Below are positions 1,030-3,286 of a DNA stretch of 64,000 nt, in pieces. How positions within the stretch are numbered: position 1 is the first letter of the stretch; the number at the start of each line of letters is the position of its first letter. The stretch is from a bacterium (GTDB lineage: Bacteria; Myxococcota; UBA727; JAUIJE01). The stretch spans positions 124,001 to 188,000 of the forward strand of contig JAUIJE010000004.1 in NCBI GenBank assembly GCA_030431455.1. Reading direction: 5' to 3'. Below the pieces are notes generated by a model that was not told where the DNA came from, searched no databases, and saw nothing but the letters and a program-made list of their open reading frames with translations. Both the position numbers and the translations under genes were made by a program.

Positions 1030-3090
1030 ATGATGTGGAGAATCGTCGTCGGCGCTTGGGCCGTCATCAGCCTGGCCGGATGCCCGGGCACGAGCAGCAC
1101 CGGGCCGGAGCCCGAGGCCGAACCCGAGGTGCAGTTTGGCGAGACCCTCGGCTTGTCCGCGTGCGACACCGCCACCGCCGACGCCCACCCGGACATGGAA
1201 TGCAAGACGTTCCGCACGCTGGCCGGGGTCTCGATGGGCGGCGGCACCGCGGCCCGGCTCGGCTTCACCTACCCCGAGCTGTTCGACGTGGTCGGCATCA
1301 TGGGCACCCCCTTCGCCGACAACGAGTTCTTCTGGGGGGTGATCAAAGAGAACTTCATGGGGGGCTTTTGTCCCCTCGACCAGCTGGAGGACCTCATCGC
1401 CAACGAGGGCCCGGAGGCGATCAACGACCGCGACAACCCCCTCGCGTTCTGCGGCACCCATGACGTGTATCCCCTCGAGGGCGGCCAACAGGTGAGCAAG
1501 GACTTCCCCGCGGTGGAAGGTTCGGAATGTTACTTCTTCCGTTCGGACTACAACCACTGGTACCGCGGGCCCGACGCGGGCCGCGGCGGCACCTTCAGCC
1601 GCAACGGGTTGATCGAAATCTTCCACGACATCGTCATGGCCTACGGCAACCCCTTCTATTACAACGAGGCCGACCCCTACTTCCCCCCCGGGGTCTCCCC
1701 GACGTGGCACGTCCCGCCGCAAGACAACGCGTTCGACCGCCAAGCGCTGTGCAACAACCCGATCACCATCTCGGGGATGTACAACCGCGAATACAACCCC
1801 GACGGCAGCTACGACGTCATCACCTATTGCGAAGGCAGTGACGGCGACAGCGGGGCCTACGACCCCGCGGGCAATGGTCGTTACCGCAACGTCATCGAAT
1901 ACACCCTCGCCGTCGACCTCAACGGCAACGGCCTGCGCGACTACGGCGAGCCGTTGGTGATCAACGACCGCGAGCGATACCTCGACTACGGCCTCGACGG
2001 GCTCAAGAGCGAGGACGAACCCGGCTACGATCCGGACACCAACCCCGACCCCGCGGGCGACGACTACGACCCGATGACCAACCCCAACGGCTTTGAGCAC
2101 AACTTCACCCACGACGAAGGCGAGGCTTACGACGACGACGGACTCGATGGCGTGCCCGCCACCGGGGACTACGGGGAGGGCAACGGCACCTATGACCTGT
2201 CGCCGGTGCTGCAGCGCATCTTCGATCGCTCGCCGGGCTTGCTCTTCTCCCGCATCGACGACACCCAGGTCGACCGGCTCGACATTTGGATCGACGCCGG
2301 GATTCGAGACTTCATCAACAGCGCCCAAATCACCAACGCGCTGTACTCGAAGATCGCGGCCCGCCAAGCCGACAGCACCGTCTACAACGACTTCCGCAAC
2401 CTCCCCGGGGTCGAGGGCGGCTACGCCTACTACAAGCCCGACTACACCCGGGACGGCATGGGCCAGGTCGCCTACCTGCGCTACGGCAAGCCCGAGACCT
2501 GCCCCAACACCGACGAGGTCCTGGGCGACGGCAACCACGTCGGGCCGGACATCATCCACCGCATCTACACGTTGATCTCGTTCATCTCCGCGCGCGTGCC
2601 CCCCCAAGGGCGCGACAACTACATCAACGGCGTGGTCAGCGACCTCGGCAGCCCCAACGGCAGCCTCACCGACTACGGCGAACTGTCCTCGTACTACTCG
2701 GAGGCCTTGGGGCGCGACATGGCGTTCGGCGTGTCCCTGCCGCCCGACTACTACCTCGAGGAAGAGCGCGACTACCCGGTGATGTACTTCTTCCACGGCC
2801 AAGGCCAGTCCGCCGACGACATGGTCGCCATCGGCTACGTGTTGTTCGGCAACATGAAGGAAGCGGCCAAGGCCGAGCGATCCGCCGAGGGCTACTCCGA
2901 CTTCCAGAAAATGATCTTGGTCTGGGTCGACGGGGACTGCATCGGGGACGACTGCTGGACGGGGAACTTCTACGCCGACTTTGAAGGCCTCCCCCGCAAG
3001 GACCGCAACTTCGAACAGGCCTTCATCGAGCTGGTCAACCACATCGAGACCAACTACCGCGTGAAGAAGCCCGAGCTGGTGCCGCGCTGA
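1030..3090 (+). CDS. Secreted lipoprotein, esterase-like alpha/beta-hydrolase in permuted order
   Basis: A 686-residue lipoprotein: signal peptide with lipobox LAGC (Cys18). The start ATG at 1030 has an AGAGGTGA ribosome site just upstream. The nucleophile elbow GVSMGG (Ser68) lies almost at the N-terminus, followed by helix and strand typical of the esterase D/feruloyl-esterase group (ARLGFTYPELFDVVG). A long acidic insertion carries a perfect EF-hand/dockerin-type loop at 296-307 (DLNGNGLRDYGE). The likely acid (DAGIRD, Asp427) and His (GDGNHVG, His503) follow. The strands that normally precede the nucleophile come last: VMYFFHGQGQ (oxyanion loop, 589-592), MILVWVDGDC and FEQAFIELVNHIETNYRVKK, after which the protein stops. 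The order is thus Ser-Asp-His-oxyanion instead of oxyanion-Ser-Asp-His. Likely an exported, lipid-anchored esterase; the substrate is unknown. Confidence 0.8.
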   Translation: MMWRIVVGAWAVISLAGCPGTSSTGPEPEAEPEVQFGETLGLSACDTATADAHPDMECKTFRTLAGVSMGGGTAARLGFTYPELFDVVGIMGTPFADNEFFWGVIKENFMGGFCPLDQLEDLIANEGPEAINDRDNPLAFCGTHDVYPLEGGQQVSKDFPAVEGSECYFFRSDYNHWYRGPDAGRGGTFSRNGLIEIFHDIVMAYGNPFYYNEADPYFPPGVSPTWHVPPQDNAFDRQALCNNPITISGMYNREYNPDGSYDVITYCEGSDGDSGAYDPAGNGRYRNVIEYTLAVDLNGNGLRDYGEPLVINDRERYLDYGLDGLKSEDEPGYDPDTNPDPAGDDYDPMTNPNGFEHNFTHDEGEAYDDDGLDGVPATGDYGEGNGTYDLSPVLQRIFDRSPGLLFSRIDDTQVDRLDIWIDAGIRDFINSAQITNALYSKIAARQADSTVYNDFRNLPGVEGGYAYYKPDYTRDGMGQVAYLRYGKPETCPNTDEVLGDGNHVGPDIIHRIYTLISFISARVPPQGRDNYINGVVSDLGSPNGSLTDYGELSSYYSEALGRDMAFGVSLPPDYYLEEERDYPVMYFFHGQGQSADDMVAIGYVLFGNMKEAAKAERSAEGYSDFQKMILVWVDGDCIGDDCWTGNFYADFEGLPRKDRNFEQAFIELVNHIETNYRVKKPELVPR

Positions 3091-3176: not shown

Positions 3177-3252
3177 GGGTCGGTAGCTCAGTTGGTAGAG
3201 CATCTGACTTTTAATCAGATGGTCCTGGGTTCGAGTCCCAGCCGACTCACCA
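3177..3252 (+). tRNA. tRNA-Lys (anticodon TTT)
   Basis: A full cloverleaf is readable. The acceptor GGGTCGG pairs with CCGACTC (one G-U), the D-arm contains AGCTCAGTTGGTAGAGC, the anticodon stem TCTGA/TCAGA encloses loop CTTTTAA (anticodon TTT, A37), and the T-arm has GGTTCGAGTCC. The discriminator is A and CCA is encoded at 3250-3252. The gene lies 73 bp upstream of mtaB. Confidence 0.97.
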
Positions 3253-3255
3253 CAG

Positions 3256-3286
3256 AACCGCCGTGATACACGGCGGTTTTGTTTTG
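3256..3286 (+). terminator. Intrinsic terminator of tRNA-Lys
   Basis: Perfect 10-bp stem AACCGCCGTG / CACGGCGGTT (3256-3265 and 3269-3278) with an ATA loop, followed by the T-rich tail TTTTGTTTTG. It sits 3 nt after the CCA end and should separate the tRNA from mtaB unless read-through occurs. Confidence 0.85.

Follow-up and report, generated by a model that had tools for sequence, protein, structure and literature searches.

The stretch of DNA analysed here (the window) covers 64,000 nucleotides of contig JAUIJE010000004.1 from the Myxococcota assembly GCA_030431455.1 (positions 124,001 to 188,000, forward strand), and near its start lies a gene for a 686 amino acid lipoprotein which is very probably a true circular permutation of a CE1-type esterase, working as an active lipid-anchored hydrolase. 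The ATG of this gene is preceded by a Shine-Dalgarno-like gaggtga, and the protein opens with the features of a bacterial lipoprotein, a hydrophobic signal followed by the lipobox LAGC, whose cysteine, Cys18, is invariant in 25 aligned sequences; its C-terminus reads NYRVKKPELVPR. The features of the gene, with the grounds on which each was assigned, are as follows.

1030 to 3090, + strand: gene for the predicted circularly permuted lipoprotein esterase (open reading frame of 686 amino acids plus stop; orthologs).
1030 to 1083, + strand: lipoprotein signal peptide with the lipobox LAGC at its end and Cys18 as predicted lipidation site (sequence; Cys18 invariant in alignment A1).
1213 to 1374, + strand: second half of the esterase fold, residues 62-115, with strand beta5, the elbow G66-V-S68-M-G70, helix alphaC and strand beta6 (PF00756 alignment from position 116; AlphaFold2; profile comparisons).
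1231 to 1233, + strand: Ser68, predicted nucleophile (Ser in 83/83 aligned sequences; falls on the S150A position of PDB 7xrv in the alignment).
1375 to 2259, + strand: lid or insertion between beta6 and beta7, residues 116-410, about 300 in all (AlphaFold2; profile-profile comparison).
1915 to 1950, + strand: EF-hand-type loop D296-x-N-x-N-G-x-x-D-x-x-E307, predicted Ca2+ site (conservation in 83 sequences).
2308 to 2310, + strand: Asp427, predicted triad acid, in DAGIRD after beta7 (83/83; aligned with the canonical Asp region).
2536 to 2538, + strand: His503, predicted triad base, in GDGNHVG after beta8 (83/83).
2677 to 3087, + strand: first half of the esterase fold, placed at the C-terminus, residues 550-686, beta1-beta2-beta3-alphaA-beta4-alphaB (PF00756 positions 1-114; AlphaFold2).
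2794 to 2805, + strand: oxyanion segment HGQG, residues 589-592 (G590 and G592 in 83/83, H589 in 76/83).

Along the chain the predicted nucleophile Ser68 (GVSMGG) comes first, then Asp427 (DAGIRD) and His503 (GDGNHVG), and only after these the oxyanion segment HGQG, whereas the collinear order in PF00756 is oxyanion segment, nucleophile, Asp and His, and this is recovered only when the chain is artificially rejoined. A preliminary description of the gene had pointed out this order; it is real, orthologs keep it along their full length, and the residue numbers and motifs named at the time (LAGC18, Ser68, 296-307, Asp427, His503 and 589-592) were all correct.

The sole Pfam match of the whole protein was to PF00756 (Esterase), at 43.7 bits against a curated cut-off of 22, which places it in that superfamily, and all of the aligned family members matched the same model at E <= 0.01 (62/62). 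Profile positions 1-114 fell on residues 557-680 (E = 3.9e-11) and the N-terminal part, searched alone, matched positions 116-159 (17.8 bits, E = 0.003), so that the two pieces adjoin on the profile and are reversed in the protein. Rejoining the sequence with its C-terminal piece first, as had been proposed, replaced the two swapped pieces with a single unbroken match to positions 1-159 at 48.3 bits. A profile of the 62 family members matched 47 PDB sequences up to E = 10, headed by CE1 feruloyl esterases with 7xrt first (E = 1.9e-26); on 7xrt the C-terminal part of the family covers residues 25-143 and the N-terminal elbow residues 145-179, separated by a single residue, and the serine of the elbow aligns to the S150A site of the mutant 7xrv. 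Both halves are thus homologous to one normal-order domain, swapped and with abutting boundaries, on the Pfam profile and on 7xrt.

Profile-profile comparison (hhalign) of the family with 27 normal-order Myxococcota esterases gave separate, out-of-order pieces scoring 110 and 63 when the native order was used, but one piece scoring 162 when the halves were rejoined; with the lid removed as well, the score rose further to 184 (214 columns, E = 9.4e-26), with Asp427 falling at the canonical Asp region. The PF00756 match and the ortholog support are far beyond chance, and the circular permutation first suggested from inspection of the sequence is supported by the Pfam rejoining, by these higher hhalign scores and by orthologs of the same order, which were found throughout the Myxococcota.

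An AlphaFold2 model built with the 62 aligned sequences gave a single confident domain for the full protein (mean predicted local distance difference test score, pLDDT, of 88.3; predicted template modelling score, pTM, of 0.90) in which all eight core strands are present. Their order in the model is beta5 (62-67), beta6 (87-91), beta7 (418-424) and beta8 (480-485), followed by beta1 (550-557), beta2 (562-569), beta3 (584-588), beta4 (629-633) and helix alphaB (661-675), with short strands at the two new chain ends (56-59 and 682-685). A Foldseek search, limited to alignments that follow the chain order, matched CE1 feruloyl esterases with the whole model over 130-168 columns at E of about 1e-4. 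Residues 50-540 folded separately reached a pLDDT of 89, and this model of the N-terminal half retrieved CE1 feruloyl esterases first as well, though below significance.

Relatives with the same order were found in 24 of 58 near-relative genomes (in one of the 24, G027, only a normal-order esterase was matched, and weakly) and in 43 of the 146 Myxococcota genomes sampled, these 43 belonging to 19 families. An alignment query of named genomes returned 151 stretches encoding relatives, and an exact-pattern search of the named-genome contigs with the single protein returned no match; nearly all of the 80 stretches retained out of the 151, which have the permuted order and make up our named-genome set, are labelled Myxococcota or Deltaproteobacteria, and one is labelled Oligoflexales. 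The permuted order holds in 83/83 aligned sequences, in all of which Ser68, Asp427, His503, Gly590, Gly592, Asp296, Glu307, Cys241 and Cys267 are invariant. In a divergent subgroup (loci L098, L102, L105, L109 and L091) the oxyanion segment reads PG[VIH]GM instead of HGxGM, with Ser, Asp and His intact. In many relatives an extra domain, about 150-300 residues long, separates the elbow from the lipid anchor; a common N-terminal domain at this place, between lipobox and elbow (L060, L064, L068, L071, L074, L076, L097, L103 and L110), has a motif that reads roughly 'GPAVTFGP..REIPFTIPVNPA...PRxGTYQAV' and gave no Pfam match where tested (L064 and L074). A shortened copy, L149 (complement strand, open reading frame of 315 amino acids), keeps the lid and has lost the elbow and most of the core; the genome concerned has two intact copies, and the short one is probably a pseudogene. 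One further candidate, L143, seemed to be another esterase starting at the elbow and was judged from its coordinates to be cut by the contig end.

Several observations weigh against reading the protein as a permuted, working esterase. His503 has no residue-by-residue alignment to the canonical His, because some 35 extra residues come before it, and the support from the model consists of its confidence scores and strand order rather than of triad geometry or strand pairing. The Foldseek matches for the N-terminal part (residues 50-540), with 7xrv and 5vol first, were non-significant (E = 0.27-0.33); His589 is replaced by Gly or Pro in the seven relatives that have not kept it; and nothing in the gene neighbourhood is conserved among the esterase loci compared, apart from a FadL-type transporter upstream in a few.

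The swapped order might instead be a relic, in which tandem duplication or truncation left the second half from one copy of an esterase fused to another copy's first half, the outcome being either a dead product or a normal copy that has lost its remainder. Circular permutations usually arise by way of tandem duplication, and two loci hold tandem copies of the permuted gene, 99% identical in L070 (at 5646 and 8224) and 100% identical in L080 (at 5878 and 9582, + strand), which may have been duplicated recently or may stem from the assembly of metagenome-derived genomes. The same boundaries are however kept over the 19 families, and the active-site residues do not vary. The missing first half was absent from all 69 N-terminal extensions examined, and the gene 5' of the esterase in the window, on the opposite strand, encodes an unrelated protein with a cyclic nucleotide monophosphate (cNMP)-binding domain and TPR repeats, and hence there is no lost esterase piece upstream in the window. 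Truncation, a relic and an assembly error were therefore excluded, as the order is conserved across the phylum, the active site is invariant and the extensions lack the missing half; the relic, which the preliminary description had offered as its alternative, was rejected and we consider it extremely improbable. Judged by comparison of sequences, the rearranged order is a real working design, the same in all relatives compared across the Myxococcota, and not a broken gene.

The lid was initially described as an acidic insertion of about 250 residues carrying a perfect EF-hand-type loop. The loop at 296-307 stands as described, but the insertion is larger, at about 300 residues (roughly 116-410), and the acidic, loop-bearing section is its C-terminal portion and not the whole. 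The loop, DLNGNGLRDYGE (D296-L-N-G-N-G-L-R-D-Y-G-E307), has conserved acidic or amide residues at positions 1, 3, 5 and 9 and Glu at position 12 (D296, N298, N300, D304 and E307), with D296 and E307 in 83/83 sequences and N or D at 298 and at 300 in 83/83 each. Further acidic lid residues, D319, E365, D369, D373 and D380, are also invariant, and together with the loop this suggests that the lid binds Ca2+. No Pfam family matched lid residues 247-396, and a 68-residue part of the lid, searched for in the 58 near-relative genomes, is nearly confined to the permuted family; no unpermuted esterase with the same lid was found in these genomes. There are two exceptions to this confinement: in L147 (G029:C244, complement of 158-2083) the acidic lid module opens a ceramidase-like protein (PF04734), and in L148 (G047:C54, 1039-2781) two tandem copies of it lie in a repeat protein that weakly matches EF-hand and TSP3. 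The module follows the pattern DxGxDGxxxxxEPGYDxxxNPDPxGDxYD...

By sequence and by structure the best matches are the CE1 feruloyl and acetylxylan esterases of PF00756 (PDB 7xrt BT_4077, 5vol and 1jjf), which resemble the permuted family in both halves of the fold, in the GxSMGG elbow, in HGxG and in the Asp of GxxD; unlike them, the permuted family has its halves swapped, an EF-hand-like lid of about 300 residues and a lipoprotein anchor beside the nucleophile strand. Esterase D (S-formylglutathione hydrolase) has the fold and superfamily in common with the permuted esterase, but is short, of normal order, without such a lid and not a lipoprotein; a normal-order, full-length PF00756 gene in the same genome, L112, is probably of this type. 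Tannase/feruloyl esterase B and MHETase (PF07519) carry a large Ca2+-binding lid over an alpha/beta-hydrolase esterase, at another place in the fold and with normal order. They showed no significant similarity to the permuted esterase, Aspergillus FaeB being a non-significant match for the structure of the N-terminal half.

The novelty implied for this arrangement held only in part. In type-2 extracellular polyhydroxyalkanoate (PHA) depolymerases the lipase box comes first and the oxyanion hole lies C-terminal to the triad (PMC2666664), so the order itself has been described, whereas the permuted Myxococcota family is undescribed in the open literature searched, subscription papers mostly falling outside this coverage. 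An oxyanion segment C-terminal to the triad is found in the permuted family just as in the enzymes of Penicillium funiculosum (PDB 2D80), Acidovorax and Delftia, and the family also has a hydrophobic residue, V67, before the catalytic Ser, a trait tied to PHA depolymerases (PMC2666664). It could thus be derived from, or belong to, the type-2 enzymes, in which case there was no independent permutation. However, PHA depolymerase structures were absent from the 47 PDB sequences, which CE1 feruloyl esterases headed, and from the top 50 of either structure search (whole model or N-terminal half), the lid is a different one, and no PHA-binding domain was recognised in the permuted esterase. NCBIfam gave a trace match to type-1 PHA depolymerases at the elbow, with 18.7 bits where the cut-off is 150, and no match to a type-2 model, the presence of such a model in the library being unverified. 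We regard descent from the type-2 enzymes as very unlikely and, since they were recovered neither by the profile to E = 10 nor in the top 50 folds, the permutation looks, by these searches, independent of theirs. The 2D80 enzyme is itself said to have been described as a circularly permuted alpha/beta hydrolase.

For the Myxococcota protein we propose a break in the chain after helix alphaB and before strand beta5, just ahead of the nucleophile elbow, with the original termini becoming linked; the lipid anchor would then be attached just before beta5 and the beta1-alphaB half would be translated last, with an ordinary alpha/beta-hydrolase as the finished fold. In this enzyme Ser68 would attack the ester with His503 and Asp427 acting as the base, and the backbone amides of the elbow and of HGQG would form the oxyanion hole. 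The lid would cover the site and select the substrate, probably stabilised by Ca2+ at 296-307 and by disulfides. By analogy with the general fold, the active site would sit at the C-terminal strand ends and the new N-terminus would lead into beta5 from the other side, so that the anchor would keep the active site facing away from the membrane.

The product is most likely an exported, lipid-anchored serine ester hydrolase of CE1/PF00756 ancestry, and we infer a location in the outer membrane and a bulky acyl or aromatic ester as substrate outside the cytoplasm. Its CE1 ancestry points to polysaccharide-borne acyl or hydroxycinnamoyl esters, while lipid or aromatic esters would fit the FadL-type transporter found upstream in a few relatives. 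These FadL-type outer-membrane transporter genes lie directly upstream of the esterase in L045 (3656-5170), L046 (3136-4782) and L047 (4386-5885), all on the + strand, and were identified by a PF03349 match in L045 and assigned by clustering in L046 and L047. The PF00756 fold also includes acyltransferases such as antigen 85, and a protein folded as described could act in vivo as an acyltransferase, or as a binding protein with the same triad, and not as an esterase; 1sfr turned up weakly among the PDB-sequence matches and the neighbours of the gene vary between loci. The closest matches are however feruloyl and related esterases, and the invariant triad and oxyanion Gly favour chemistry, although they do not separate hydrolysis from transfer, and we therefore consider a role other than esterase unlikely, though less so than descent from the depolymerases.

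Natural circular permutations of catalytic domains which are still active and phylum-wide are uncommon, and here solved normal-order homologs allow comparison. Beside the type-2 PHA depolymerases this is an apparent second case of an alpha/beta hydrolase opened ahead of the nucleophile strand, at roughly the same point in the fold, and thus raises the question of why that site is tolerated. We suggest tentatively, and with rather more doubt than confidence, that the permutation arose independently in the CE1 lineage, was fixed phylum-wide together with the calcium-loop lid and was kept because it changes the tethering position; if so, it would be an example of a permutation retained for altering where an enzyme can be tethered, with the catalytic mouth pointing off the membrane. 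As the Pfam model covers each half separately, permuted esterases of this kind resemble truncated ones to annotators.

Downstream of the esterase gene the window holds a tRNA-Lys (ttt) gene at 3177-3252, directly followed by a strong terminator-like hairpin at 3252-3282, and an open reading frame from 3325 which, read by eye, resembles a MiaB-type methylthiotransferase.
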